In this document: positions 17,646 to 32,135 of the stretch, in pieces
Layout: the number at the start of each line of letters is the position of its first letter
Numbering within the stretch: the stretch's first letter is position 1
NCBI RefSeq assembly: GCF_000417505.1
Contig: NZ_APHY01000046.1
Span: 38-32,737, forward strand
Direction: 5' to 3'
Source of the DNA: Megasphaera sp. NM10
Lineage (GTDB): Bacteria > Bacillota > Negativicutes > Veillonellales > Megasphaeraceae
DNA length: 32,700 nt
Notes under the pieces: model-generated
The model's database searches: none
Told to the model about the DNA's origin: nothing
What the model saw: the letters and a program-made list of their open reading frames with translations, nothing else
Made by a program: the position numbers and the translations under genes

Positions 17646-17794
17646 GATATCATTCCTTTTCTGTGCTAGTCTTTTCAGTATAACAAAGGAATGTATAAAC
17701 AGCGTAAATATTCCATAAAAATTGTGCTTTGCTTCTACCGAATCCAACAATTTGCTAATTCTCTATTTTTATTGTACCATATCGGCCCAATAAA

Positions 17795-17857
17795 GCAAAT
17801 AGAAACTATGTTCGCTAAAGGGATAATCGTTTCGTCGAACATAGTTTCTTTATTTGC
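17795..17857. repeat. Long inverted repeat upstream of the integrase
   Basis: GCAAATAGAAACTATGTTCG (17795-17814) is matched by the reverse complement at 17836-17857, which has two extra bases. The 21-base loop is CTAAAGGG... There is no T-run on the plus strand and only a weak TTTATT on the reverse strand, so it is a poor terminator. It might be an operator, a recombinase site or a small mobile remnant. Confidence 0.6.
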
Positions 17858-17977
17858 AAAAAAATCCGCCTAATTTTCATAAATGGCCTTATGAGACGTT
17901 TTTTATCATCTTGTGAGTAATCACATGGGAAACTTGTTTTATTTTCCTTAAATCGGCAAATTCAACAGGAACGTTTG

Positions 17978-18006
17978 TTGCATCTTGTCTTTTCTCATAG
18001 TACAAT
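17978..18006 (+). promoter_or_regulatory. Promoter of the integrase gene
   Basis: TTGCAT at 17978-17983, a 17-base spacer, and TACAAT at 18001-18006, 24 bases before the start codon. Confidence 0.6.
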
Positions 18007-18029
18007 AGTAAACAAAGGAGGTGCCGCAT

Positions 18030-19145
18030 ATGTATTTACGAAAACGAGGCAAGAAATGGTATTATACGATTGAAGTCCCGACGGAAGATGGTCAGGGAAG
18101 GCAGCGTGTGGAACGCGTCGGCGGTACTTCGTATGCCCAGGCGGCGAAAGCCTATCGCCAGGCCATGAAAGCCCTGGATGAAGACGGGGAGCTGCCGGAA
18201 AAGCCGGAAGTCAAGGTCATGGCTTTTTTGCGGGACTGGCTGGAAAAGGATGTGCGCATCAATTTAGGCCCTAATACGTATGATTCTTATTCCGGCATCA
18301 TTAAATGGCATATTGGTGCCCGTTTTGGCAATTATGCCCTGGAAGCGCTGACGACGGCAGAAATCCAGGACTGGATCAACAGCCTGAAAGAGGATGGTTA
18401 TTCCCGGTCAACGGTTAAATCTATTTTCACGGTCTTCAACGACGCCATGCGCTGGGCCGTCTCCAACCGCCAGTATATCGAAATCAATCCCATGGCCAAC
18501 GTCAAGATGCCGAAATTCGATATTCCCCGGAAAAAGCCGGTCATCTTTTCACATCAGCAGATACAGATTATTTTCCATGCCTTCCCGGTAGGGCATAAAT
18601 ATTATGCGCCGTGCATGATTGCCTATTGTACTGGCCTGCGTGTCGGCGAATGCCTGGCCCTGCAATGGTCCCATATCGACATGGAAAACCGCACGCTTTC
18701 CGTGGTCAGTACCTTGTATGACAAAAAGGGTGTGCCCGTCTGCAAGGCCACGCCGAAGACGAAGTCGTCGGTCCGGACCATTCCTTTTAATGAAACCTTA
18801 TACAAGGCCCTGCTCCGCCATAAGGCCCAGCAGGCCAAGAACCATCGTCTTTACGGCGACGACTACGTCGAAAGCGATTTCGTCTGTACCCGTGAAGACG
18901 GCCGTCCCATGAACAGCAATGACATGCGGTACTTCAATATGTGGTGCAAAAAGGAATTCGGCGGCGGCAGTTTCCATTCCTTCCGCCACACCCATGCGAC
19001 GATGATGCTGGAAAACAATATCGAGCTCGACTACGTTTCCAAGCGGCTGGGCCATTCTACCATTGCCACGACGGCGAACATTTACGATACGATTACGGAT
19101 AAACGCAATCGGGAAGCCATGAAGAAGCTCGATTCGATTTTGTGA
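18030..19145 (+). CDS. Tyrosine recombinase / phage-type integrase
   Basis: This 371-residue protein has three parts: an N-terminal arm-binding-like domain (MYLRKRGKKWYYTIEVP), a core-binding SAM-like domain (about 62-160), and the catalytic domain. Catalytic residues are R204 in TGLRVGE, a Lys near 243-245, H316 and R319 in HSFRHTH, H342 in LGHSTI and the nucleophile Y352 in ANIYDTI. It would cut and rejoin DNA at a core site with a 6-8 base overlap. The start at 18030 is eight bases after AAAGGAGG; a GTG at 18021 is too close. No excisionase or element genes follow. A 9-7-9 inverted repeat lies 58 bp after the stop. Confidence 0.9.
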   Translation: MYLRKRGKKWYYTIEVPTEDGQGRQRVERVGGTSYAQAAKAYRQAMKALDEDGELPEKPEVKVMAFLRDWLEKDVRINLGPNTYDSYSGIIKWHIGARFGNYALEALTTAEIQDWINSLKEDGYSRSTVKSIFTVFNDAMRWAVSNRQYIEINPMANVKMPKFDIPRKKPVIFSHQQIQIIFHAFPVGHKYYAPCMIAYCTGLRVGECLALQWSHIDMENRTLSVVSTLYDKKGVPVCKATPKTKSSVRTIPFNETLYKALLRHKAQQAKNHRLYGDDYVESDFVCTREDGRPMNSNDMRYFNMWCKKEFGGGSFHSFRHTHATMMLENNIELDYVSKRLGHSTIATTANIYDTITDKRNREAMKKLDSIL

Positions 19146-19202
19146 AATCATGGCGGCAAACGCGGCGGCAAGATGCCGTAAATATAGCATAAAACCTTAA
19201 CT

Positions 19203-19227
19203 TTCCGATAATCAATACTTATCGGAA
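19203..19227. repeat. Recombinase-type core site (inverted repeat 9-7-9), copy 1
   Basis: TTCCGATAA (19203-19211), spacer TCAATAC, TTATCGGAA (19219-19227): a perfect 9-bp inverted repeat around 7 bases. It lies between the integrase stop and the next gene's start. The arm and spacer sizes suit a tyrosine-recombinase core. The same arms recur at 26337-26359 with another spacer. An operator for the gene at 19276 is the alternative. Confidence 0.5.
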
Positions 19228-19275
19228 TAATATAACAATAATCAAAAATATAGAGAAGGAAGAACCCCTTATATC

Positions 19276-19827
19276 ATGTCTCCTCAAATCACTACCTATA
19301 GCGGAAAGTTTTTCGATATCACCCATCCCAACCCGGCAAGCATCTGCATCGAAGATATTGCCCACGCCTTGTCCCTCATCTGTCGGGGCAACGGCCATGT
19401 GATGACTTTTTATTCCGTCGGCCAGCATTGTCTGCAATGCGCCAACGAAGTGATGGCCCGCCAGCTGCCGTCCCGGCTGGTCCTGGCCGCCTTACTGCAC
19501 GATGCGACGGAGTGTTATATGTCCGACGTGCCCCGGCCGATGAAGCAGCTCATGCCGATATACCGGCAGACGGAAGCCAAATTGCTGGCTATCATTTATG
19601 AGAAATTCTTAGGCCAGCCCTTGACGGAAGGGGAAACACGCCTCCTCAAAGGGATTGACGATGATTTCCTCTGGTATGACCTGACCTGTCTCTTGCACGA
19701 CCAGCCTCAGGGCGAGCCGCCACAGGTCCATTGTATCCCCGATTACCGGCCGCGTCCCTTTGCCGACGTCGAAGCCGAATACTTGCAGTGCTATCGTTCT
19801 TGTCAGGAGGGAGTCTTATGGAAATAG
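19276..19827 (+). CDS. HD-domain hydrolase (YfbR-like)
   Basis: This 183-residue protein begins with a motif common to this subfamily, TYSGKFFDITHPNPASICIEDIAHALS. It then carries the metal His in SVGQHCLQCA, HD in LAALLHDATECYMSDVPRPMK, and a late Asp in GIDDDFLWYD. Relatives are single-domain phosphohydrolases or 5'-nucleotidases found in chromosomes and phages; the substrate here is not known. The start has AGAGAAGGAAGAA upstream. Its last 10 bases overlap the following SDR gene (ATGGAAATAG), so the two are translationally coupled. Confidence 0.8.
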   Translation: MSPQITTYSGKFFDITHPNPASICIEDIAHALSLICRGNGHVMTFYSVGQHCLQCANEVMARQLPSRLVLAALLHDATECYMSDVPRPMKQLMPIYRQTEAKLLAIIYEKFLGQPLTEGETRLLKGIDDDFLWYDLTCLLHDQPQGEPPQVHCIPDYRPRPFADVEAEYLQCYRSCQEGVLWK

Positions 19828-20579
19828 CCATCGTCACCGGCGCTTCGTCCGGGCTGGGCCGGGAATATGCGAAATTGCTGGACCAAGAAGGATTGGATGA
19901 AATCTGGCTCGTCGCCCGGCGCCGGCCCCAGTTGGAAACCCTGGCTGGAAAACTGACGACGAAAAGCCGTATCTACGCCCTGGACCTGACGGACAGGGCT
20001 TCTTTGCTGACGCTGCAGCAAGCCTTAGCGGCCTGCCAGGTCACGGTCCGTTATTTGATCCACGCCGCCGGCTTTGGCAAGATGGGGCCTGTGGCGGCCG
20101 TTCCGGCAGGCGTCCTGGAAAACATGATCGACCTCAACGACCGGGCCGCTGTCAGCCTGGTCCAGGCTGTACTGCCTTATTGTCATGCCGGCAGTCATCT
20201 GGTCCAGATTTGTTCCTGCGCAGCCTTCCTGCCCATTCCGGAACTGGCTGTCTACGCGGCGACGAAAGCCTTTCTCCTACGCTACAGCCGGGCACTGGCC
20301 GTGGAACTGGCACCGCAGGGTATCCTCGTATCTGCCGTTTGTCCGTATTGGGTGAAAGATACAGGATTCATCGCGACGGCCCGCCAGACCGATGAAGGCC
20401 GGCTGTTCCGCCATTTTCCCCTGGCCGGGACGAAGGAAGCCATTGCCCGCCGCTCCTTCCAGGCCGTGAAAAAAGGCCGAGTCGTCATCACGCCGGATGT
20501 CGTCTCGACCTTGCTCCGTTTTCTGTCGGGGTGGATTCCCCAATCGATTCTCTTGTACGGCAGCCGCTGGTTCCGCTGA
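19818..20579 (+). CDS. Short-chain dehydrogenase/reductase
   Basis: A 253-residue classical SDR with TGASSGLG at 7-14 for NAD(P) binding, Asn107, Ser133 in ICSCAAF, and Tyr146 and Lys150 in YAATK. The family oxidises or reduces alcohol and carbonyl groups in the cytoplasm. Its specificity cannot be told. The start is the ATG inside the 3' end of the HD gene, seven bases after CAGGAGGG. The gene ends 2 bp from the stop of the convergent PLP enzyme, so no separate terminator fits between them. Confidence 0.87.
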   Translation: MEIAIVTGASSGLGREYAKLLDQEGLDEIWLVARRRPQLETLAGKLTTKSRIYALDLTDRASLLTLQQALAACQVTVRYLIHAAGFGKMGPVAAVPAGVLENMIDLNDRAAVSLVQAVLPYCHAGSHLVQICSCAAFLPIPELAVYAATKAFLLRYSRALAVELAPQGILVSAVCPYWVKDTGFIATARQTDEGRLFRHFPLAGTKEAIARRSFQAVKKGRVVITPDVVSTLLRFLSGWIPQSILLYGSRWFR

Positions 20580-20581
20580 CT

Positions 20582-21778
20582 TTATAAGCCGATGGCTTTC
20601 AGTGCCTGGTCCAGGTCACCGATGATGTCGTCCGGGTCTTCCAGGCCGATGCTGAAACGGATGAAGCCCTTGCGGAATTTTTCCGGGTAGAGATTGATGC
20701 GTTCATCGTAGCTGGGCTGCGGGAAAATCAGGCTTTCGTCATGGCCGAGGGATACGGCGAAGGTGACGACTTTCAAAGCTGCGCAGAAGCGTTCGACGGC
20801 CTTGTCGTCGGCTGCGATGCCAAAGGAAATGACGCCGCCAAAGCCGTGCTTCATCTGTTTCTTAGCCAATTCATGACCGGGATGGCTGGCCAGGCCGGGA
20901 TAGGAAACGAAGGTGACGTTTTGCCGCTGTTCCAGCCATTCGGCGATTTTCTGCGTCGATGCGTTGATGCGTTCCATCCGCAAGGGGAAGGTCACGGCAC
21001 CGCGGAAAATCTGCCAGGCATTGAAGGGGCTGATGACAGAGCCGACGTTGACCTGGGCTTCATAGCGGATCCGGTCCATCGCTGCCAAATCATTGAAAAT
21101 GATGGCCCCGCCCTGGGCATCGCCATGGCCGTTGATATATTTCGTCAGCGATTCGACGACGAAATCGGCTCCCAGGTCCAGTGGTCGCTGGTTGAGAGGC
21201 GACGCAAAGGTATTGTCGACGGACAAGACAGCCTCGTTTTCATGAGCGATTTTAGCGATGGCTTCGATATCTGAAATGCCATCAGTCGGGTTGTCCGGCG
21301 TTTCAATATGGACTAGGCGCGTCCCCGGCGTAATCGCTTTCTTGACGGCTTCCAGGTCAGTCATATCGACCATGACTGTTTCGACGCCGAATTTCTGGTT
21401 GAATAATTCGTGGAACAGGCGATAGACTGCCATATAACTGACTTTCGGATAGACGACGCGGTCGCCCGTCTTGAGCAGGGTCCAGAACAGGGCGTGAAGG
21501 GCGGCGACGCCGCTTCCCAGGACGATGGCGTCATCGGCACCATGAAGGGCCGCTACTTTTTCTTCCAGCCAATGTTGATTCGGGTTGCCGTTACGGGCAT
21601 ACATCAGCAAATCCGTCGATGAATAGTTGACCTTCGACAGATCATCGGGCAGCTTGTAGCTGTTGGCCATGTGCAATGGCCGGCGGACAGCGCCCGTTTC
21701 TGCGTCATAGCCGGCACCAGTGTGTACAGCCTGTGTCGAAATGTCATACCCCTTGAACTTATTTTCTTTCTTAGCCAT
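20582..21778 (-). CDS. Cys/Met-metabolism PLP enzyme (cystathionine gamma-synthase / gamma-lyase family)
   Basis: This 398-residue fold-type I PLP enzyme shows YARNGNPNQHWLEEKVAALHGADDAIVLGSGVAA, the cofactor Asp188 in SVDNTFASPLNQRPL, and the PLP-binding Lys213 in ESLTKYINGHGDAQGG. The C-terminal SLGHDESLIFPQPSYD is usual for the family. Members make or cleave cystathionine, O-acyl-homoserine or methionine; methionine gamma-lyase or O-acetylhomoserine sulfhydrylase are possible, and sequence alone does not decide. The start at 21778 follows AAAGGGAA; in-frame codons upstream are AT-rich leader. Several TATAAT-like boxes lie on this strand at 21809-21835. Confidence 0.85.
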   Translation of the reverse strand: MAKKENKFKGYDISTQAVHTGAGYDAETGAVRRPLHMANSYKLPDDLSKVNYSSTDLLMYARNGNPNQHWLEEKVAALHGADDAIVLGSGVAALHALFWTLLKTGDRVVYPKVSYMAVYRLFHELFNQKFGVETVMVDMTDLEAVKKAITPGTRLVHIETPDNPTDGISDIEAIAKIAHENEAVLSVDNTFASPLNQRPLDLGADFVVESLTKYINGHGDAQGGAIIFNDLAAMDRIRYEAQVNVGSVISPFNAWQIFRGAVTFPLRMERINASTQKIAEWLEQRQNVTFVSYPGLASHPGHELAKKQMKHGFGGVISFGIAADDKAVERFCAALKVVTFAVSLGHDESLIFPQPSYDERINLYPEKFRKGFIRFSIGLEDPDDIIGDLDQALKAIGL

Positions 21779-21881
21779 AAAAAATTCCCTTTTATGGTGT
21801 AAATAAATATTATACAAGTATATTATAAAGTATATCATCAAAAAAGTAAAAGCCTTTTGTTTTCCAATTCATATTGACTTT

Positions 21882-21909
21882 TTGACTTTTGCTAAAATAA
21901 GCGTATAAT
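21882..21909 (+). promoter_or_regulatory. Promoter of the radical SAM - arsC-like operon
   Basis: TTGACT at 21882-21887, a 16-base spacer, and TATAAT at 21904-21909, 65 bases before the ATG. A second TTGACT lies eight bases upstream. Confidence 0.7.
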
Positions 21910-21974
21910 AGAACTATACAAAGAAATAGAAACAGCGCCGTTTCAATTGTTTAATTTTGTAGGAGATGATTGGT

Positions 21975-23397
21975 ATGAGCAAGTTAACCCATCGTATCGA
22001 AAAGAAGGCTGTCGAAATCCTGGTCGACCGCATCATGGCCGAACGGAATCCGGCAGACCGTCAAAAAAAATTGAAAACGCTTATCTTATGTCATGCAGCA
22101 TCTGTTTGGCGACCTCTTTGAAAAGGAATCCTTTGACGATGCACGCAGACTCATCGATGAAGGGGGCAAATGGTTCCGCTTCCTCAATACGGCTCTGGAT
22201 ACCTTGAACCCGCATGTCGTCAAGACGGCCGTCATGGACCTGGGCTTTGAAGCTGGATTTTACGGCCTGCGTACGCGCGACGCCGCCAAGGCGAAATATC
22301 ACTGCAATATTCCCTGGGCCATCCTCTTCGACCCGACCAGCGCCTGCAACCTGCATTGCATCGGCTGCTGGGCTGCTGAATACGGTCATACGCTGAACTT
22401 GTCGTTCGACGTCATGGATAAAATCGTCCGCGAAGGCAAGGCTCTGGGCTGTCATTTCTACCTACTCACGGGCGGCGAACCGCTCATGCGCAAGAAAGAT
22501 ATCCTGCGTCTGTGCCGGAAACACCCGGACTGTGAATTCCACGCTTTTACCAACGGTACGCTCATTGATGATGCTTTTTGCGACGAAGTCACGGACGTAG
22601 GCAATCTCAGCTTCTCCCTCAGTATCGAAGGATTCCGTGAAGTCAATGACAGCCGCCGCGGCGAAGGCGATTTCGACAAGGTCATGCACGCCATGGACCT
22701 CCTGCGCAAGCACGGCATCGTTTTTGGGACGTCCATCTGTTATACCCGGAAAAACATCGACACCGTCACGTCTGACGAATTCCTGGACCTGCTCATCAAG
22801 AAGGGCGTCTGGTTTACGTGGTACTTCCATTATATGCCCGTCGGCAACGACGCCTCGCTGGACCTGCTACCGACAGAAGAACAGCGGGCCTATATGGTAC
22901 GCCGGGTCCGCGAAATCCGCAGCGTAAAGGGTGGCAAGCCGATTTTCGCCATCGATTTCCAGAACGATGGCCAGTTCATCGACGGCTGTGTCGCTGGCGG
23001 CCGCAATTACTGCCATATCAACCCCAATGGCGACGTCGAACCGTGCGTCTTCATCCATTATTCCAGCGCCAATATCAACAATCAGAGCCTGCTCTCATGC
23101 TTGCAGCAGCCGCTCTTCAAAGAATATGCCAAAGGCCAGCCCTTCAACCACAACCATCTGCGCCCGTGTCCGATGCTGGAAAATCCGCAGTATTTAGCCG
23201 CCATGGTCAAACGCAGCGGTGCCAAATCGACAGACCTGCAGTCGCCGGAATCGGCAGAACACTTATGTAATAAATGCAAGGCTTATGCCGTACAGTGGAA
23301 ACCGACAGCCGACAAGTTGTGGGCTGAAATCGAAGCTAATAAAGAAAAAGAAGCCGCGGAAAAGAAGGTCCACAGCCCTCAGTCCGCTACTCATTAG
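21975..23397 (+). pseudogene. Radical SAM/SPASM protein, one-base frameshift near the N-terminus
   Basis: The ATG at 21975 has AGGAGATG upstream and encodes SKLTHRIEKKAVEILVDRIMAE, but that frame stops at 22131. The remainder runs in another frame from about 22075: VMQHLFGDLFEKESFDDA and onward. One extra base between 22074 and 22090 (run of four A, or TT) explains the shift, and without it the protein would be 474 residues. The core has CxxxCxxC in SACNLHCIGCW, GGEP in YLLTGGEPLM, and a SPASM-like Cys-rich tail (YCHINPNGDVEPC, RPCPML, CNKCKAY). Such enzymes cleave SAM at a 4Fe-4S cluster and often modify peptides or assist metalloenzymes; the target is unknown. The stop overlaps the ribosome site of the next gene. 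Confidence 0.8.
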
Positions 23398-23407
23398 GAG
23401 GAATCCC

Positions 23408-23749
23408 ATGAATATCCAGATTTTCGGCACGAAAAAGTGCTTTGATACCAAGAAAGCCATCCGCTATTTCAAAGAACGGAACATCAAGGCCCAGTTCATC
23501 GACTTGAAAGAAAAAGGCCTGAGTAAAGGCGAATACACCAAGGTCAAGCAGGCCGTCGGCGGCCTCAATGCCATGCTCAATCCGAAATGCAAGGATCAGG
23601 ATACGCTGGCCCGCATCCAATATGCCGTCGATGACGAAAGAGATGCCAATGTGCTGGCGAACCAGCAAGTCTTAAAGACGCCCATCGTCCGCAATGGCGC
23701 CAAGGCGACCGTCGGCTACGTGCCAGAAGTCTGGAAAACGTGGGAATAG
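23408..23749 (+). CDS. ArsC/Spx-family thioredoxin-fold protein
   Basis: A 113-residue protein starting MNIQIFGTKKC, with Cys11 at the catalytic site of the ArsC fold, then AIRYFKERNIKAQFIDLKEKGLSKGEY and LKTPIVRNGAKATVGY, the cis-Pro loop. The protein resembles the YffB/Spx-like group more than proven arsenate reductases. Spx's CxxC is absent, and no other ars genes are nearby. It is probably cytoplasmic and redox-active. The ATG lies seven bases after TAGGAGG, which contains the radical SAM stop, so translation is coupled. Confidence 0.82.
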   Translation: MNIQIFGTKKCFDTKKAIRYFKERNIKAQFIDLKEKGLSKGEYTKVKQAVGGLNAMLNPKCKDQDTLARIQYAVDDERDANVLANQQVLKTPIVRNGAKATVGYVPEVWKTWE

Positions 23750-23757
23750 TTTTTAGT

Positions 23758-23786
23758 TTGACAGAAATTAAACGTTTGGGTATACT
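23758..23786 (+). promoter_or_regulatory. Consensus promoter of the small secreted-protein gene
   Basis: TTGACA at 23758-23763, a 17-base spacer, and TATACT at 23781-23786. The spacer contains one arm of the repeated AAACGTTT palindrome, so the promoter is probably repressed by a DNA-binding protein. Confidence 0.8.
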
Positions 23787-23810
23787 CATAGTTACTTAAA
23801 CGTTTAATTT
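23765..23810. promoter_or_regulatory. Paired AAACGTTT operator-like palindromes
   Basis: AAATTAAACGTTT (23765-23777) and its exact reverse complement AAACGTTTAATTT (23798-23810) flank the -10 box and the start site. Each holds its own palindrome; TTAAACGTTTAA at 23796-23807 is perfect, and the centres are 28 bp apart. A central CG with these flanks is LacI-family-like. The same sequence can form a 13-bp hairpin followed by eight Ts, so it may also end the arsC transcript. Confidence 0.6.
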
Positions 23811-23836
23811 TTTTTATGGTGAACGAGGTGTAGAAA

Positions 23837-24284
23837 ATGAAATATACTGTAAAAAGAACCGCTGTATTAGCCTGTGCGGCCTTGATGATCGGCAGCGTTT
23901 CCCTGGCTGCCAGCACGCCGAAGGTCCAGGCCATGGGGCTGCCCAATCCCATCGTAACTTATGATACTTATGAAAGTGTCGTCAAAGATGCCGGCTTTAC
24001 GCCCTTATATTTGACCCGCGATGCCGGATTCAGCTGCTACTATCTTTCTTTGATCGGCAAAAACAAAGACATTTCTGGCATCTATAGCGTAACCTGGAAA
24101 GACCAGGTCATCGACGGCGTCACCGTCAGCATAGCAAAAAATCAGTGACACGTCCTATGCGGCTCATTGGAAAGTCGGGGACTATCAGTTCTCCGCCCAG
24201 GCAACGGGGATGAGCGCACCGGAATTCAAAGCCCTCCTGGAAAACAGCCTCGTCGACGACTCGGCTCATTATTTTGTAAAATAA
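23837..24284 (+). pseudogene. Small secreted protein of unknown function, frameshifted
   Basis: The N-terminus is a signal peptide (VKRTAVLACAALMIGSVSLAAS). The mature part has SVVKDAGFTPLYLTRDAG and DISGIYSVTWKDQVIDGVTVSIA, then stops at residue 103. In another frame the gene continues with SDTSYAAHWKVGDYQFSAQATG, MSAPEFKALLENSLVDDSAHYFVK and TAA at 24282-24284. One extra A in the run of six at 24136-24141 would account for the shift. Restored length is about 148 residues. The W..G.Y.FSA.A...S..EF..L pattern resembles DUF4367-type domains, but I cannot assign a function. It has a strong, apparently regulated promoter. Confidence 0.65.
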
Positions 24285-24295
24285 AAAACATAGTT

Positions 24296-24440
24296 TATAG
24301 TTCGAAGTTCGTAGTTTGCAGACGATGGCTTTACATTTAATCATTCACTAAAAACTACAAAACTTAATACTCAAAAAGCGGCTGTCTTTATAGGACAGTC
24401 GCTTTTTTGCGAACCACGAACCACGAATTACTAATCACTA
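24296..24440. repeat. Dispersed heptamer-periodic repeat around a terminator (copy D)
   Basis: Left arm ATAGTTT ATAGTTC GAAGTTC GTAGTTT GCAG, a central CGATGGC...AATCATTC, then an opposed arm CTAAAAA CTACAAA ACTTAAT ACTCAAA. A terminator and a second array CGAACCA CGAACCA CGAATTA CTAATCA CTACTTA follow. Read on the reverse strand, the order terminator - heptamers - GAATGATT - TCTGCAAACTAC matches copy A after terC. Confidence 0.6.
24373..24408. terminator. Bidirectional terminator between the secreted-protein gene and the MFS gene
   Basis: AAAAAGCGGCTGTC, loop TTTATAG, GACAGTCGCTTTTTT. T-runs lie on both strands, between the convergent secreted-protein and MFS genes. Confidence 0.82.
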
Positions 24441-25796
24441 CTTACTCCGTGCAGCTGAAGGGACGATGCCGATGGCACAGAGAATCGTAAAGACGATGAA
24501 GGCCTGCTGGATGTGCTGGGCCAGCCAATCCGAGGCAGCCGAGGCCCCGCTTTGCGACAGAATCAGGGTGATGATAGCCACACTGAGGACCTGACCGATG
24601 AGGCGGACCGTACTGACGACAGACGAGGCAGCGCCGTAATATTTTGGCGTCACAGCCCCCATGATAGCATTGTTATTCGGTGCCGTGAACAGGGCAAAGC
24701 CGATGCCGATGATGACTAGGGCCAGGGCGATGAGCCAGAAAAAAGGGTAAGAGACATCCACCGCTAAGAGACAGAGGCCAAAGGTAATCAAAATCATGCC
24801 GGAAGAAGCCAGGACGGCTGGATTGATACGGTCCGACAGGGCCCCGGTGACAGGGGACAAGAGGGTCATCAGTACGGGCTGAATCAGTAAAACCAGCCCC
24901 GTATCGCGGGCATTGAGGCCGGTAATGCGCTGCAAGTAAATGGACAAGAGGAAACTGATGCCGAAGGTCGCGCAGTAATTGAGCATGGCCGCCAGACTGG
25001 AACAAGAGAAGACGCGGTTGCCTGCAAAAATACGGACTGGCAGGACTGGGCTTTTCCGGTGCCATTCACCGTATAAGAAAGCTAGGAACAAGAGGAGACC
25101 GGCAGCTAAGAGGTATTTGGCGTATGCCAGAGTCATTACTTCCGATAAGCCAACCATAATGGCAATCATGGCCAGGGCATACAACAGACTGCCAGGCAAA
25201 TCGAGACTGCCTTTCGCGTTGACGATCCATTCTTCCTTCGTCATGCTGCGGGCTGCAATCAGCCAGGCCAGGGCACAGATGAAGGCGATGAAATAAAAAA
25301 TCGTCTTCCAGCCTAAGTAATAAGAAAAGAAGCCGCCCAGGACAGGCCCAAAGGACAGGCCGCAATATACGGCGGCAATCGTAAAGCCCATGGCCCGGCC
25401 GCGGCGCTGTGGCGGCGTGACCAGGGATACGATGGCCATGCTGGTCGCGAAAATACTGGCACTGCCCAGCCCCTGCAGGATGCGCAGCAAGAACAGACCG
25501 TACAAGGAGTTCACAAAATAAACGGCCAGCGAAGAGACACAGAACAAGGAGACGCCGAATAAAAAGATATGACGCTTGCCAATCCGGTCGGCAATCTTGC
25601 TGATTGGCATGATGGTCACGGTCGAAGAAATCAAGAACAACTCAATGACCCAACTGAGCTGAGCATCAGTCGCACCATAAGCCGTACCGATGCTAGGCAG
25701 GGCTGTCGTCAGGGCGCTGCTGGTAAAAGGATTGATGAAAGATACCATCATGACGACGGCTAAAATCGTATTTTCATAAGATAAAAATCGCTGCAT
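24438..25796 (-). CDS. MFS drug/solute exporter (DHA2-like, 14-helix type)
   Basis: This 452-residue membrane protein has about 14 hydrophobic helices. The N-terminus FINPFTSSALTTALPSIG and SWVIELFLISSTV match the DHA2 start. ADRIGKRHIFLFG is the loop 2-3 signature. RILQGLGSASIFATSMAIV is motif B with its Arg, and GPVLGGFFSYYLGWKTIFY is motif C, diagnostic of antiporters. It probably exports drugs or organic ions with protons. The ATG follows GGAGGG by about nine bases. The gene is single, with its own promoter, converging on the small secreted-protein gene. Confidence 0.87.
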   Translation of the reverse strand: MQRFLSYENTILAVVMMVSFINPFTSSALTTALPSIGTAYGATDAQLSWVIELFLISSTVTIMPISKIADRIGKRHIFLFGVSLFCVSSLAVYFVNSLYGLFLLRILQGLGSASIFATSMAIVSLVTPPQRRGRAMGFTIAAVYCGLSFGPVLGGFFSYYLGWKTIFYFIAFICALAWLIAARSMTKEEWIVNAKGSLDLPGSLLYALAMIAIMVGLSEVMTLAYAKYLLAAGLLLFLAFLYGEWHRKSPVLPVRIFAGNRVFSCSSLAAMLNYCATFGISFLLSIYLQRITGLNARDTGLVLLIQPVLMTLLSPVTGALSDRINPAVLASSGMILITFGLCLLAVDVSYPFFWLIALALVIIGIGFALFTAPNNNAIMGAVTPKYYGAASSVVSTVRLIGQVLSVAIITLILSQSGASAASDWLAQHIQQAFIVFTILCAIGIVPSAARSK

Positions 25797-25838
25797 CGCG
25801 AATAACCCTCCGTAAAAATAAATTGATAGATAAATGTA

Positions 25839-25867
25839 ATTATACTGCCAGAGAAAATCATTCGCAA
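25839..25867 (-). promoter_or_regulatory. Promoter of the MFS gene
   Basis: On the reverse strand TTGCGA (25862-25867), a 17-base spacer, and TATAAT (25839-25844), about 45 bases before the start. Confidence 0.7.
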
Positions 25868-26336
25868 GAAATAATTTTTTGAACTATTTTTACGAGAAAA
25901 GGCTGATTTTGCAAATAGTTGATTAGCTCAACTATTAAAACACTACTGTATAGAAAAAAAGGCCCATATCCATAGATAATATAACACATCAGCCTGATAC
26001 TAAATCATGCGATAATACGACAATATCGCGGACTATATAGCGATTCGCACAATCCAGGCGTCGACTCCGCTTAGTGTACCCAAAAATACCACGGATCCTA
26101 TATCCGATTCCAACCAGCCTGCATAAGCCTAACAATATATATATCTCTGCAAACAGATACAGATATATATTATAAAACACAGAAAAACTTTTCATCAAAA
26201 AAATAATAGCATATCAGCAGGGAGAATCACAAATAGCCAAGATAAAATAAATGAATTCAATCAATGACTGCGAAGAACTCGATACAGCGATTTTGCAGTC
26301 ATTTTGAACATGGGGTAGAAATAGCCCCTCGATTAC

Positions 26337-26359
26337 TTCCGATAACGTTAAATTATCGG
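26337..26359. repeat. Recombinase-type core site, copy 2 (candidate element end)
   Basis: TTCCGATAA (26337-26345), spacer CGTTAAA, TTATCGG (26353-26359). Arms and 7-base spacing equal those of the repeat beside the integrase (19203-19227), but the spacer sequence differs and the last two bases are CA instead of AA. Arm-like direct repeats follow 135 bp to the right, toward the relaxase. Confidence 0.5.
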
Positions 26360-26493
26360 CAGTAATAAAATGGGAGATTCTGGGAGCATCTGTAAAGCTT
26401 TATGAACGGCTTTATTAAGCCAATTATGAGGTATCATGTCGCATTGTCAATATTCTTCAAATCTTGTCAAATTCCCTTAATTTTCATTTCAAA

Positions 26494-26586
26494 GTGGGAA
26501 GTTTTGTGGGAAGTTTTTGTGGGATGTTTTACTAGCTGAATCGCCTAAATTTTTATTTCAATGTGGGAAGTTTTGTGGGAAATTTT
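26494..26586 (+). repeat. Five GTGGGAAGTTTT direct repeats in two blocks
   Basis: Units start at 26494, 26506, 26519, 26563 and 26575: three in tandem, 32 bases of other sequence, then two more. Both blocks are preceded by ATTTCAAA/ATTTCAAT. Possible roles are arm-type integrase sites or iterons. Confidence 0.65.
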
Positions 26587-26654: not shown

Positions 26655-28712
26655 CTACAGACTCCAGCCACGGTACATTTCTTCTTCGACTCGTTCCAGT
26701 TCATCTTTCTTTTTGTGATGATCTTCATCATCCCACCATGCCTGGTATCGGCCGTGAGTATCTTCGACTGCTTTTTCCAGGAAGTGGTTGATTTTTCCCA
26801 AGACTTCCGTCTGGCGCTGCTGATGGACGGCCTCTGTATGGGGCGGATAGTGATTGCCTTCTCCTCGCTTGAGAATTGTCTTCTTGGCACTGCCATAGAG
26901 CCGAACGGTGTCTTTAGTCCGGGAAACATCGAGGATTTCTTTTCCATCAGGTCCCATAGTCAGCGTATACACAGAAGCCTGGCCTTTTTCGACGGTATCT
27001 CCCAAAAGGAGTGCCGTCTTTTTTTGTGGTTCCAATTTCCCTGTCGGTATATCACTCAGGACTACATAGGCCCGGCCATTGTGAGACAGTATCTGGAAGT
27101 CTTTCAATGGTTTGCCACCTTCCAGTTTGCTGTGACGCATGACGAGTCTTGGCAGCTGCCGTGAATACAGGATTCGATCCGAGTCCGGAACGTTTTCCTT
27201 GAGTTCGGCTGCTTTGGCCAGATACATCTTTTCTTTGTTTTTAGCTTTGATGACTTTACCGTAGATCTTCTTGGCGTCTTCCTGGATAGCTTTATTCTGT
27301 TGGGTCAGTTCGTCTACGATGCGCTGGATGTCATCTTCTTTATTACGCAGTTCTTCATTATAATCCTTCAACTGTTTTTCCATGGCCTGTTTTTGGCGCA
27401 GCTTATCTGAATAAGACAGATAGAATTCCTTTTTCTGCTTATATGGGACGTCTTTCAGCTCGATATACTTCTTTTCCATTGGCTTGAGTTCTTCCAGGAT
27501 ACGTTGATGACGCTTCTTCAGATTATGATAATCCTTACCGATGATACGTTCGATAGCTATATTTCTAAACAAACGTTCTGGGATGACTTTGGCCTTGACT
27601 TCTTTATATTTTGCCAGCTGTTCAGCCTGCCTTTTTGCCTGTTCCTTAGCCCGTGCTTTTAGGCCAGCATAGACGTCGTTCGCCGTGACAACAATCGGTT
27701 CATTTGCCAGTTCTTCTGCCTTTTCATCGTCAGCCTCAGCAGACAGCTTGGTTTCCATTTCCAAGATTTCTTCCTGACGGATGCGCTGTTCTTCCAATTC
27801 GATTTCCTTGATGACCCGGCGCAGCACTTTATCAATGGCAAAGCAGGTGATTTTCTGTTCCATGACACTCCCTTCCGTGTCTGTCGTTTCCGTCGTTTCA
27901 GCTTCACTGCTGCTGTCATCAGGAGACTCTGTCTGTTCGTCGATTTCCCGTACCCGTTCCTGAATCCGTTCCATGACTTTCGGGTTCTTGTAGGCTTCGC
28001 CTAAATGAGGCGCAGGAATCCTGTCGAGCTTTTCGGCTTCTTCAAAACGGCCCTGATTCAGCAGGTCCTGACGCTGGGCAGCCAGGGATTTCTCGCTGAT
28101 TTCCCGTTTGATGCCCAGTTCTTTGAATTTACGGTTGACGATGTCGGCCCACATCTTGCGCATGGCAGCATTTCCCTGATGGCTCTGATAATAGCGATCG
28201 GCCAGATACCCAGAACACGGTTCCCCATGCTGGTTGACGGCATACTGCTTGAAATACATGTCCGGTCCGAGGGGCCGGTCTTTTTCTATGCTCTTTTCAC
28301 AGAACATGAGATGGCAGTGGATGTTCCGGTGGTCATGGTCATAGGCAGCTTCTTTATCGTGGATGGCATAGGTGAAGGCGTGATTTTTTCCGATTCCGGA
28401 CTCCTTCAGGAACTCTTCGACTAGGGCGATATTGTCATCCAGGCTCAGTTCTTCCTGCAAGCCCATGCGGATTTCACGGTAGGCCCGGCCTTTGACACGG
28501 CGGTTCTCTTCGGCAGCATCCCAGAATTCGCCGGCATCCTGTGCCCAGTCCGGCAGGTTCCCGGAGGAGGTGAAGACCAGGTCTTCCTTCTTGCCCTTCA
28601 TGTGGGCATAGAGCCCCTGACGGCAGATATAGTCGTAGTGCGCGCGTGTATTTATCTTTGTTCCGTCTGCCCTTTTTGCATGGGGATGATTGCCGAAATA
28701 ATAGAGTGCCAT
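26655..28712 (-). CDS. MobA/MobL-family (MOBQ) relaxase
   Basis: This 685-residue protein has its relaxase domain in the first 250 residues. The candidate nucleophile is Tyr26 or Tyr28 in RAHYDYICRQG. The metal-binding histidines lie in DHDHRNIHCHLMFCEK (H126, H128, H132, H134). GYLADRYYQSHQGNAAMRKMWADIVNR is usual in this family. Residues 240-520 are long, charged and probably coiled coil. The enzyme should nick oriT, stay bound to the 5' end and pilot the strand to the coupling protein. The start at 28712 follows GAGG by seven bases. The gene is transcribed leftward, away from the oriT and the T4SS genes. Confidence 0.9.
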   Translation of the reverse strand: MALYYFGNHPHAKRADGTKINTRAHYDYICRQGLYAHMKGKKEDLVFTSSGNLPDWAQDAGEFWDAAEENRRVKGRAYREIRMGLQEELSLDDNIALVEEFLKESGIGKNHAFTYAIHDKEAAYDHDHRNIHCHLMFCEKSIEKDRPLGPDMYFKQYAVNQHGEPCSGYLADRYYQSHQGNAAMRKMWADIVNRKFKELGIKREISEKSLAAQRQDLLNQGRFEEAEKLDRIPAPHLGEAYKNPKVMERIQERVREIDEQTESPDDSSSEAETTETTDTEGSVMEQKITCFAIDKVLRRVIKEIELEEQRIRQEEILEMETKLSAEADDEKAEELANEPIVVTANDVYAGLKARAKEQAKRQAEQLAKYKEVKAKVIPERLFRNIAIERIIGKDYHNLKKRHQRILEELKPMEKKYIELKDVPYKQKKEFYLSYSDKLRQKQAMEKQLKDYNEELRNKEDDIQRIVDELTQQNKAIQEDAKKIYGKVIKAKNKEKMYLAKAAELKENVPDSDRILYSRQLPRLVMRHSKLEGGKPLKDFQILSHNGRAYVVLSDIPTGKLEPQKKTALLLGDTVEKGQASVYTLTMGPDGKEILDVSRTKDTVRLYGSAKKTILKRGEGNHYPPHTEAVHQQRQTEVLGKINHFLEKAVEDTHGRYQAWWDDEDHHKKKDELERVEEEMYRGWSL

Positions 28713-28875: not shown

Positions 28876-29080
28876 TTGTTTTTGATCTTTTACCGATAAC
28901 CTTATTATACCATCGGTTACCGCTAAATAAAATATATTACCGTGATATTCTGAAAAATTACCCGTCATATTTTCCAATAAAACGAGCATTTATAATACAT
29001 TACGCCGACAAATCACCTATTTACATTTTATTTTTAATGTGATATTTTTATGACAAACATAATATAAGGAGGTGTGTTTA
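28876..29080. other. AT-rich leader region upstream of the T4SS genes
   Basis: About 200 AT-rich bases. A possible promoter is TTGATC (28878-28883) with TATACC 18 bases on. CCGAT/ATCGG arms (28893 and 28911) could be an operator. AAGGAGG lies just before virB8. I see no gene. Confidence 0.4.
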
Positions 29081-29851
29081 ATGTCATTATTACCACATCA
29101 TACGACGCCACCTGCCGGGAAAGGGACAGACCCGCTGGAGAAAGGCCCGATGAAGCCCTTTGGCAACGTCCTCATGAATATGGACCAGGACCGCCGGAAT
29201 GCATACTGGCTCATGAAGGCCTGTGTCGTCATCATCGGTATCGCTGTCGTATCCGTTGTGGCTATCGCTACGACATATAATTACAAAACCTATGTAGTCC
29301 GTGTCGATAATGCAACCGGACAGGTCGATACCGGTGGGCAGTTGAAATCGACGAATTACGTTCCTCAACAGGCCGAAATCAAGCATTTCCTGGGCCAGTT
29401 CATCCTGGATACCCGCACGGTCCCCCTCGACCCGGTCCTTTTCAAGAACAACATCGACCGGTCACAGCACTTCATGACCCGCGAAGCCAGCACCAAGATG
29501 GCTTCCATGCTGAAGTCCGATAATCCGCGGACGAAACTCGGCAAGATGACGATCCAGCCGGTCATCAAGTCCATTCAGCTGCAGCCGGGCTCGAAATCGA
29601 CGTATCAGGTCCGTTGGTCGGAAGAATCATTTTCCTTGAGTGGCGGCATGAGCAATAAGAAAGTTAACTACGTCGCCCTCTTCTCCGTCGGCATCGACCC
29701 TCCCAGCAAGGAAGACGAACTGCTCATCAACCCACTGGGCCTCAAGATTCAGGACCTCACCATTTCGATTGAATCGACATCTTCGGCTTCCCCATCCGAT
29801 TCTTCGGATAACGAACCGGCTCCGACTGAAAGAGGAGGTAAGATCGAATGA
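29081..29851 (+). CDS. Type IV secretion inner-membrane protein VirB8/TrbF
   Basis: This 256-residue protein has a short cytoplasmic N-terminus (NVLMNMDQDRRNAYWLMKA) and one transmembrane helix (about residues 45-68, ACVVIIGIAVVSVVAIATTY). A periplasmic NTF2-like domain follows with TYVVRVDNATGQV, RTVPLDPVLF and YQVRWSEE. That is the TrbF/VirB8 plan. It helps assemble the conjugation channel at the inner membrane. The ATG is eight bases after AAGGAGG. The last bases overlap the next gene (ATGA). The acidic Ser-rich C-terminal tail is probably disordered. Confidence 0.85.
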   Translation: MSLLPHHTTPPAGKGTDPLEKGPMKPFGNVLMNMDQDRRNAYWLMKACVVIIGIAVVSVVAIATTYNYKTYVVRVDNATGQVDTGGQLKSTNYVPQQAEIKHFLGQFILDTRTVPLDPVLFKNNIDRSQHFMTREASTKMASMLKSDNPRTKLGKMTIQPVIKSIQLQPGSKSTYQVRWSEESFSLSGGMSNKKVNYVALFSVGIDPPSKEDELLINPLGLKIQDLTISIESTSSASPSDSSDNEPAPTERGGKIE

Positions 29852-30663
29852 TGAAATATACCCTGCTCGCAGCCGGGCTCATCTGCTGCCTATGTACATC
29901 GGCGTATGCCATGGATAAATCGACATACTTCACCGGTGATGGCGACTGCACGGCTGCCAAAGTAGTCTACGACTATAAACCGGACAGCCTCTTCCAGGTC
30001 AATGCACAGATGGGCTTCGTTTCAGACATTCAGCTGAAGCCTGGCGAAAAGATCACCTACATCGGTGCCGGCGACACGAAACGCTGGCTCATCGACCAGT
30101 CGACAGTCGGCAATGCCGAACATATCTACATCAAGCCGCTGGCACCGGGAATCCAGACCAACATGATTATCAACACCGACGCTCACAGCTACCGGTTGTA
30201 CCTCGTATCGGTATCCGAAAACTATACGCCTATCGTACAGTTCAGCTTCCCTAACGAATCGTTCCGCAAGGCTCTGGCCGCCCCTCTTCCCTGGAAGAAC
30301 AAGGAAGAGAAAAAATACTTCGACATTTACACCGTAAAGAAGGGCAATACCTACGTACCCAAGGACATTAACCGCAAGTACGAAATCCATAAGCATGGCA
30401 ACCTCGATGTATCAGTCCTGCCGTCGGAAATCTTCGATGACGGCATCCATACCTACATCAATATGCCGAAGTCTAATAAATATGACCAGCCGACATTGTA
30501 TAACGTCCAGGACGGGAAGCTGACCCTCGTCAACTACCGTATCCGTGACGGCTATATCATCGCAGACCGGGTCTTTACCAAAGCCCGTCTCTGCTATACC
30601 TCTAAATCTTATGTAGACATCACTCCATCCGATTCAATCTATAAAGGAGGCGGATCGAAATGA
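29848..30663 (+). CDS. Type IV secretion protein VirB9/TrbG
   Basis: This 271-residue protein has a Sec signal peptide (LLAAGLICCLCTSAYA, cut before MDKS). The VirB9 N-terminal domain shows IQLKPGEKITYIGAGDTKRW, YIKPLAPGIQTNMIINTD and YRLYLVS. The C-terminal beta domain has DGIHTYINMP and IRDGYIIADRVFTKARL. VirB9 joins VirB10 (and often a VirB7 lipoprotein, not seen here) in the core complex between the membranes, which implies a diderm host. The start overlaps the virB8 stop, with AGGAGG inside virB8. It overlaps virB10 by four bases. Confidence 0.87.
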   Translation: MMKYTLLAAGLICCLCTSAYAMDKSTYFTGDGDCTAAKVVYDYKPDSLFQVNAQMGFVSDIQLKPGEKITYIGAGDTKRWLIDQSTVGNAEHIYIKPLAPGIQTNMIINTDAHSYRLYLVSVSENYTPIVQFSFPNESFRKALAAPLPWKNKEEKKYFDIYTVKKGNTYVPKDINRKYEIHKHGNLDVSVLPSEIFDDGIHTYINMPKSNKYDQPTLYNVQDGKLTLVNYRIRDGYIIADRVFTKARLCYTSKSYVDITPSDSIYKGGGSK

Positions 30664-32135
30664 TTGACTTGCGTTATAACCTTTCCATGCTGGCGTATAA
30701 GCTGAAAGACAAGCTGAACCGGAAGAAAGGCCACAATGAGGAAGACCTCGACGAGCCGGATTTCCGTACCGACTTCACCAGTGATGAGGATACGGACCAG
30801 CCTCTCTCCGACATAGACGAAGAGACACCGGAAGATGGTGATCTCATCATCCCTGACGATGAAGAAGACGAAGGTTCCCAGGCAAAGATGCTCCGCCGGA
30901 AACACATCCTGCTCGCCGCCGGATCCATTCTCTTCATCGGCGCCGGAGCCATGGCCTACTCGTCATTGAATCCGACGACGGCCAGCGGCAAAGAGTCGAA
31001 AAAAGCTTTATCCCAGAATGTCGCCCAGGCACAGGATACGGACCTTCCGACCAAGTACAGCGACATCTCTAAATATCAGAAGAATGCCAAGACCGGTAAA
31101 GACGGAAAGACGCCGACAACAGCTTCCGAAAATGGGCAGCCTGTTCCTCCCTCTTCCGGCTATGGAAACGGCACTTCTTCCTCTTCATCGTCCCGGTCAT
31201 CCGGTACGTCATCGAACCGCTCTTATAATGCCCAACCGGCTGTTTCCCGTTCATCGGCACCGCGTGCATCAGCCTCCGCTCCTTCTGCTGCCGCGGCGCC
31301 GCGGGCAACAGCTACGGTAACGCCTTCTCCGACACCGGCGAAACCGCAGATGTCGGAAGAAGAAAAGGCAGCCCTCAAAGCACAGCAGGCAGCTGAAAAA
31401 GCAGAAAACGATGCCATGAACAGCAGCATCGCTTTCAAGATTGCCACCGCCGTCACACAGGCTGTCAGCGGAACCGGTACGGCGCAGGCTGCGGAACCGA
31501 AACCGGATACTTCGTCGGCCTTCCAGCCGACGCCTTATGCACAGGATATGCCATCCGGTATGTATACCCTTCAGGCCGGCACGGTCATCCCGGCAACATT
31601 GCAGACGGGTATCACCAGTGACTCGCCGAACGGCGACTGCATCGCCATCGTCCGCCAGGACGTCTATGACAGCCTGACCGGCACGCATCTCCTTATCCCG
31701 CAGGGGTCAAAGATCATCGGCAAATATGGCCAGAGCGGTGCCCGCGGCAATCATCGCATCGGCGTCGCTTTCACCCGTATCATCCTGCCCGATGGGTCCA
31801 ATGTGAACCTGCCGAACCAGAACGCTATCGACGGGACCGGGATGCCGGGCCTGGCTGAAAAATATACCAATCATACAGGCTCGCTCTTCAAGACGGCCTT
31901 CATGACAGCCCTCCTCGGCAGCGCTGCTCAGTCAGCCACGGGCAATACGTCCGGCGACGATACCCGCAGTCCTGGTCAGGAAGCCGTCAGCGGTGCTGTG
32001 GCACAGGTCATGCAGACGGCCAGCCAGATTCTGAACCGCGAAGGCAATACCAGCCCGACCATCACCATTTCACCGGGCCATGCCTTCAACATCTTCATTA
32101 ACCAGGACCTGTCCCTGGGTGAGTACGATGAATAG
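30660..32135 (+). CDS. Type IV secretion core protein VirB10/TrbI
   Basis: This 491-residue protein has an acidic cytoplasmic N-terminus and one transmembrane helix (about 82-100, ILLAAGSILFIGAGAMAYSS). A long Ser/Pro/Ala-rich periplasmic linker (130-240) follows. The TrbI C-terminal barrel shows LQAGTVIPATLQTGI, TGTHLLIPQGSKIIGKYG, FTRIILPDGS and FNIFINQDLSL. VirB10 spans both membranes and senses the ATPases to gate the outer pore. It starts in ATGA overlap with virB9 after AAAGGAGG and overlaps the next gene by eight bases, so the four genes form one tightly coupled operon. Confidence 0.88.
   Translation: MIDLRYNLSMLAYKLKDKLNRKKGHNEEDLDEPDFRTDFTSDEDTDQPLSDIDEETPEDGDLIIPDDEEDEGSQAKMLRRKHILLAAGSILFIGAGAMAYSSLNPTTASGKESKKALSQNVAQAQDTDLPTKYSDISKYQKNAKTGKDGKTPTTASENGQPVPPSSGYGNGTSSSSSSRSSGTSSNRSYNAQPAVSRSSAPRASASAPSAAAAPRATATVTPSPTPAKPQMSEEEKAALKAQQAAEKAENDAMNSSIAFKIATAVTQAVSGTGTAQAAEPKPDTSSAFQPTPYAQDMPSGMYTLQAGTVIPATLQTGITSDSPNGDCIAIVRQDVYDSLTGTHLLIPQGSKIIGKYGQSGARGNHRIGVAFTRIILPDGSNVNLPNQNAIDGTGMPGLAEKYTNHTGSLFKTAFMTALLGSAAQSATGNTSGDDTRSPGQEAVSGAVAQVMQTASQILNREGNTSPTITISPGHAFNIFINQDLSLGEYDE

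Follow-up and report, generated by a model that had tools for sequence, protein, structure and literature searches.

Two cores with shared arms in Megasphaera sp. NM10: a dif-type site probably occupied by integrase-bearing elements, and a parallel core with a different overlap

Why does a 32,700-nucleotide stretch of the Megasphaera sp. NM10 genome (hereafter the window) carry two inverted repeats with nearly the same arms and different centers, one just behind a tyrosine integrase gene and the other some 7 kb away at the edge of a conjugative element? The window is part of contig C46 of this genome (G000), and we compared it with 15 genomes of the genus, 61 of the order and 380 of the class Negativicutes. 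The answer that we consider probable is that the second repeat (site 2) is the dif-type site of the host, occupied by elements that carry their own integrases, while the first (site 1) is a parallel core with another overlap.

Neither repeat can be put down to chance, and the 9-7-9 arrangement with differing 7-bp spacers reported in a first-pass annotation of this DNA was present as described. Site 1 (19203-19227, no strand assigned), located by sequence search, is a perfect palindrome, TTCCGATAA-TCAATAC-TTATCGGAA, which combines dif arms with another overlap and is separated from the integrase stop codon by 57 bases, consistent with its earlier placement shortly after that gene. Site 2 (26337-26361) reads TTCCGATAA-CGTTAAA-TTATCGGCA, with arms that pair at 8 of 9 positions and a symmetry that extends outward as far as TTAC...GTAA. 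A scan of the window returned no third exact copy, as had been noted, and one extra match (position 25140) at ≤3 mismatches, a search that gave 5 strand-wise matches versus 0.47 expected, a count reached by 0 of 100 shuffles. In the whole of the 2.61-Mb genome, the 16-base pattern TTCCGATAA-N7-TTATCGG was found at these two sites alone, against ~0.001 occurrences expected by arithmetic, and the reversed control pattern had zero matches there. The exact core was present in 12 of the 15 genus genomes, twice in NM10 and singly in each of the others; in G002, G006, and G009 this exact match was of the integrase-linked type, whereas their dif-type sites each had one mismatch.

The case for site 2 being a dif-type site comes from its distribution. 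Its longer form, TTACTTCCGATAA-CGTTAAA-TTATCGGCAGTAA (26333-26365, no strand assigned; delimited by sequence comparison), would also be the left attachment site (attL) of the conjugative element. A 22-base version, ACTTCCGATAA-7 bp-TTATCGGAAGT, was recovered at ≤3 mismatches in 13 of the 15 genus genomes, and the 18-base core at ≤2 mismatches in all 15 (G010 and G011 as counts alone), with one to three copies per genome at the latter threshold. In genomes without the window integrase the palindrome of the site extended further, most often to TTACTTCCGATAA-CGTTAAA-TTATCGGAAGTAA, and its flanks varied by species. Of four near-complete genomes, three had the site nearly opposite dnaA, at 0.503 (G013), 0.504 (G004), and 0.484 (G007) of the main contig. 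Across the order, the 18-base core was detected at ≤2 mismatches in 55 of 61 genomes (once in 46, two or three times in 9, and in none of the remaining 6), whereas the reversed control matched in 5 of these 61. Across the class, 148 of 380 genomes had such a match, with almost none in some families, versus ~39 for the reversed control, so some of the two-mismatch matches beyond the order are due to chance. Among the matches listed, the spacer varied by lineage, being CGTTAAA in Megasphaera and Anaeroglobus, CGATATA or CGATAAA in Veillonella, GTATAAA in Selenomonas, Mitsuokella, and most Anaerovibrio sites, and CATTAAA in Allisonella. The idea of a recombinase core with a variable overlap was half right: the sites have the features of tyrosine-recombinase cores with 7-bp overlaps, but the overlaps are fixed, with spacers that differ by lineage. 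Two further dif-like matches, with 3 mismatches each, were noted at G000:C37:6042 and G009:C52:8625.

Among known systems, site 2 comes closest to dif/Xer sites (including those of XerS/difSL and XerH/difH), with which it shares inverted arms, a short center, a usual copy number of one per chromosome, a position distant from the origin and, in several genomes, a nearby Xer-like gene; chromosome dimers would presumably be resolved here. It differs in that the arms are symmetric over 11-13 bp around a center of 7 bp. In E. coli the dif center is 6 bp. According to PMC5357621, the center measures 6-8 bp in most dif sites and 11 bp in difSL.

Comparison with a genome lacking the element, an approach already envisaged in the first-pass annotation, was afforded by G002, where dif is uninterrupted. 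To the right of the spacer, G002, G006, and G009 read CGTTAAA-TTATCGTAAGT versus CGTTAAA-TTATCGGCAGT in the window, and the relatives' right half, TTATCGTAAGT, is absent at window 26337. The missing half, CGTTAAATTATCGTAAGT, was found on contig C13 at 17069 and 67188, in each case directly after an integrase gene, the two products having 45% and 51% identity to the window integrase. The overlap CGTTAAA was identical at all three own-genome junctions (window 26346, C13:17069, and C13:67188). Moreover, the right flank of C13:67188 aligned to the right flank of the uninterrupted G002 dif (identity of 85% across 258 columns and of 87% across the following 1233). Likewise, the left flank of window 26337 aligned to the corresponding G002 left flank (identity of 84% across 986 columns and of 68% across the 155 leading to the core). 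Because these flanks match those of one uninterrupted site, dif is split in the NM10 genome.

What splits it can be read from the genes inside. Window position 26337 is the predicted left junction of a conjugative element, the setting originally attributed to site 2, with genes for a MobA/MobL relaxase (26655-28712, reverse strand) and, all on the forward strand, for VirB8-type (29072-29851), CagX/VirB9-type (29848-30663), and TrbI/VirB10-type (30660-32135) transfer proteins lying inward, each assigned by Pfam. The element thus has the relaxase and type IV secretion genes (MobA/MobL, VirB8, CagX, and TrbI) of an integrative conjugative element (ICE). Inside its left end are four GTGGGAA repeats on the forward strand (26494-26581; at 26494, 26506, 26563, and 26575), putative arm-type sites. 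They turn up again at C13:16989-17028, next to an integrase gene (C13:15861-16979); elsewhere, the window has three single copies and C13 has seven. Since the repeats are common to both ends of the element, this integrase is likely its own. The interval from C13:17069 to 67188 contains tail, portal, terminase, helicase, and DNA polymerase genes and is a predicted prophage that ends in an integrase of its own. The NM10 elements resemble ICEs and temperate phages that have a site-specific tyrosine integrase, with the integrase by the right attachment site (attR) and relaxase plus type IV secretion or phage genes inside, and differ in that their address is a dif-type site rather than, for example, a tRNA gene.

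We propose that the conjugative element was inserted in site 2 by its own integrase and that a siphophage-like prophage, also inserted by its own integrase, probably lies behind it. The element integrases would recognize the dif arms and cross over within the 7-bp overlap CGTTAAA, with each inserted element supplying an arm such that a near-complete dif is rebuilt at its outer end. The earlier suggestion that the locus behaves like Tn916, with its tolerance of differing coupling sequences, is not borne out. Tn916-like elements do share a phage-type tyrosine integrase at the element end, but here the target is fixed, the overlap is the same 7 bp at the three junctions, dif spacers follow lineage, and there is no variable coupling sequence.

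The gene beside site 1 (18021-19145, forward strand) encodes a 374-aa tyrosine integrase that matches Pfam Phage_integrase and Phage_int_SAM_3 and is kept in four species, NM10 and those represented by G002, G006, and G009, where close copies have 83-93% identity. In these three relatives the full palindrome stood at the same distance past the integrase, with overlap TCAATAC or TTAATAC (TYAATAC), and in all four genomes a dif-type site was 3.9 to 7.6 kb from site 1. Two GGCGGCAA direct repeats (19152-19171, forward strand; copies at 19152 and 19164), putative arm-type binding sites, are placed between the integrase stop and the core.

A viral contig, IMGVR_UViG_3300021254_003625, connects this arrangement to a phage. 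It is 99.2% identical to G002 across the integrase and core, and diverges at the last base of the core. Beyond that base are a second, convergent integrase with 57% identity to the C13 prophage integrase and, further on, a repressor-like gene, ParA, ParB, and a replication initiator (L459), the latter three being a set as in phage-plasmids. Because a prophage is joined at the core in this contig, a phage of the same integrase family would use site 1 as its point of attachment. An interpretation of the contig as the phage attachment site (attP), with repeats on both sides of the core, was dropped owing to the convergent second integrase. No integrase of this family was found near any of 41 other full cores at Negativicutes loci (0 of 41; stretches of 450-8000 bases, E up to 1e-8); hence, among the matches listed, the integrase-linked full core is limited to four Megasphaera species and the viral contig.

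Site 1 would accordingly be a second core with the same arms and overlap TYAATAC, tied to a same-family integrase retained in the chromosome, at which phages of the window integrase family could dock. The suggestion of separate insertions by related recombinases fits. Overlap-dependent tyrosine recombinases need matching overlaps for exchange. As the site-1 overlap differs from that of dif, exchange between the two sites by an overlap-dependent integrase is not expected, and each core should act as a landing site of its own, both being addressed via the same arms. The site-1 overlap could possibly derive from a Selenomonadaceae dif (GTATTAA vs GTATAAA, 6 of 7 positions).

The association of dif arms with the integrase family was quantified using 42 homologs of the window integrase (E ≤ 1e-40), found in 38 of the 380 class genomes, and 42 control integrases, comprising 31 database matches (E 1e-40 to 1e-3) that reached near the C-terminus and 11 further integrases. 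Within 300 bases past the stop, TTATCGGAAGTAA at ≤2 mismatches followed 17 of 42 homologs versus 1 of 42 controls (Fisher 2e-5), and exact TTATCGGAA followed 15 of 42 versus 0 of 42 (Fisher 1e-5). The arm motif had been picked after viewing the 12 order homologs, of which 11 had an arm by either measure, leaving the other 30 class homologs, uninspected before that choice, as a fresh test; among them, 11 of 30 carried TTATCGGAAGTAA and 6 of 30 carried TTATCGGAA. When mapped onto an integrase tree of 37 rows, the dif-arm label required 3 changes, compared with a shuffled mean of 12.3 (shuffles as low, 0 of 500). This tree comprised the 42 homologs and two viral integrases, the labels of which were assigned by hand, minus G170, G379, G344, and G230 (left out) and the partial G023, G170b, and G165; related rows inflate both the Fisher and the tree tests.

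For the window integrase, the ratio of nonsynonymous to synonymous substitution rates (dN/dS) between host species was 0.04-0.10 across the four species, which shows purifying selection on this gene. When G000 was compared with G002, the integrase had a synonymous divergence of 0.67, similar to the 0.52 of the adjoining HD-domain gene. The integrase block, consisting of the upstream stretch, gene, and core (17740-19227, forward strand; defined by genome comparison, its left limit approximate), is inverted in place relative to both neighbors in G006 and G009. The DNA that abuts the core differs over 1.0 kb in G006 and 1.37 kb in G009, and in the latter an AbiD/Abi_2 type gene (L183:8797-9753) sits directly at the integrase-linked core. 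In G002 there is a 6.8-kb insert at the other (left) end of the block; its 1772-aa and 345-aa open reading frames (ORFs; L181:9860-16208) had no Pfam or PADLOC match.

Several observations weigh against the combined reading of site 2 as an occupied dif-type site and site 1 as a parallel core. The prophage at site 1 is known from one metagenomic contig, which stops at the integrase start. A second core was sought at the left end of the block and not found in G000, G002, G006, or G009, where the best matches had 8, 7, 6, and 6 mismatches and were equaled by 197, 119, 20, and 17 of 200 shuffles, respectively. One of the 12 order homologs, G006:C6:412547, had no half dif, and in the class roughly half of the 42 homologs were without an arm by either measure, so the link to dif arms is true of part of the integrase family. 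The junctions and repeats of the conjugative element match, but on separate contigs, C46 and C13. Finally, the G002 site stands 0.42 of the circle away from dnaA instead of at the 0.5 of an opposite position.

The reading that competes most seriously, though we think it clearly less probable, treats site 1 as a mere scar of an old prophage whose integrase survived by accident. Site 1 does occupy the attR position of the family and the DNA nearby is variable; yet the low dN/dS in four species and a synonymous divergence similar to that of a neighboring gene indicate long retention, and the core forms a perfect palindrome, unlike the half sites of the relatives near dif. It is unlikely, in turn, that a host Xer-like recombinase inserted the site-2 elements and that the integrase genes at the junctions are incidental. 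Elements that use the host Xer at dif (IMEX) are described in PMC5357621, and an Xer-like gene is present in 14 of the 15 genus genomes. Like such IMEX as the CTX and VGJ phages and the gonococcal island, the NM10 elements appear to be inserted in dif with a dif-like site rebuilt at the junction. They differ from IMEX, which depend on the host Xer, in that integrases of their own adjoin both C13 junctions; these belong to the family whose order members have a full or half site beside them in 11 of 12 cases, and repeats typical of integrase arm sites occur at both ends of the conjugative element.

Two other accounts have far less to recommend them. That both sites are the ends of one ~7 kb composite region moved by the integrase at 18021, as the first-pass annotation had entertained, would explain the same arms 7 kb apart with an integrase beside one of them, but we regard it as highly improbable: the overlaps are unequal, the intervening DNA is largely present in G002 and partly in G004, where a close homolog of the window integrase was not found, and the integrase falls outside the interval in two genomes (G000 and G002) but within it in two others (G006 and G009). 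We give even less credence to the palindromes being transcription factor binding sites. Their symmetry and the position of site 1 upstream of a gene at 19276 would suit such a role, but there are one to three copies per genus genome even at 2 mismatches, in place of an operator common in promoters, no regulon of conserved promoter sites was seen, and the sites lie opposite dnaA and match element junctions exactly. A transcription terminator was rejected by eye, there being no T run after the hairpin.

No protein from the 15 genus genomes passed the cut-off for XerD, and none passed that for XerC, which was itself passed in just 2 of 14 control genomes. The Xer-like gene (~330 aa), with 73-82% identity to the G007 copy, lies within about 1 kb of the dif-type site in G003, G007, G008, and G012, at 3.9 kb in G013, and at about 9 kb (G002), 85 kb (G005), and 105 kb (G006) elsewhere. 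This arrangement is reminiscent of the single-recombinase systems XerS and XerH (PMC5357621), but four of the proteins scored 42-56 bits against the XerS model, far below its cut-off of 267. A ~308-aa recombinase was rejected as the host Xer, since it was present in 4 of 15 genus and 24 of 380 class genomes. A ~309-aa tyrosine recombinase (L293:636-1565) had copies in 24 of 380 class genomes, with 64-92% identity.

The remaining window features provide context for the two sites. The host DNA between them (19228-26332, no strand assigned) contains HD-type, SDR, gamma-lyase-like, radical SAM, and MFS genes, names that, except for MFS, were read from ORFs. It is largely collinear with G002 and partly shared with G004, in which SDR and MFS genes are likewise near dif. 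At the left end of the window, fragments at 30-341 and 867-1340 resemble, by eye, a transposase and a TnpB-type protein.

Beyond the genus, further cores shared these arms. Genomes of genus g57, probably Anaerovibrio from its spacer and contig matches, had two or three exact cores with differing spacers (G162, G163, G166, G167, and G169; loci L048, L056, L326, and L327), those of G162 being GTATAAA, ATTTTAG, and TAATAAT. The multiple g57 cores that were tested had no adjoining family integrase. The presence of several same-arm cores in one genome is therefore not unique to the window. In addition, many Pelagibacterales contigs had the same arms with spacer CCATTAA, among the matches listed, and IMG/VR viral contigs had them with CGTTTAA (at least 23), CATTTAA (at least 15), and CGATTAA (at least 14). 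These are perhaps the dif and phage attachment sites of another lineage.

Regarding precedent, PMC3025954 reports dif predictions for 97 organisms, apparently Firmicutes. A search of its main text returned neither Veillonella nor Megasphaera, and the Megasphaera dif-type site may already be in its supplementary table. Our limited literature search found no paper on element-borne integrases aimed at dif, nor on dif in Megasphaera.

A bolder proposition, which we advance as speculation and think improbable, is that the lone integrase and its dif-twin core form a domesticated, invertible docking module beside dif. If so, dif-type phages and small islands would insert there and leave the real dif free, and the block would be flipped or managed by its own integrase, the G009 island adjoining the AbiD defense gene being a case to consider. 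As to what the locus means more broadly, Megasphaera would have a dif-type site with symmetric arms and a lineage-specific 7-bp overlap, in a genus without recognizable XerC or XerD, and an element-borne integrase family common to a conjugative element and prophages would use that site as its address. The same arms with two overlaps in one genome would then be natural parallel landing sites, between which specificity should lie in seven bases.

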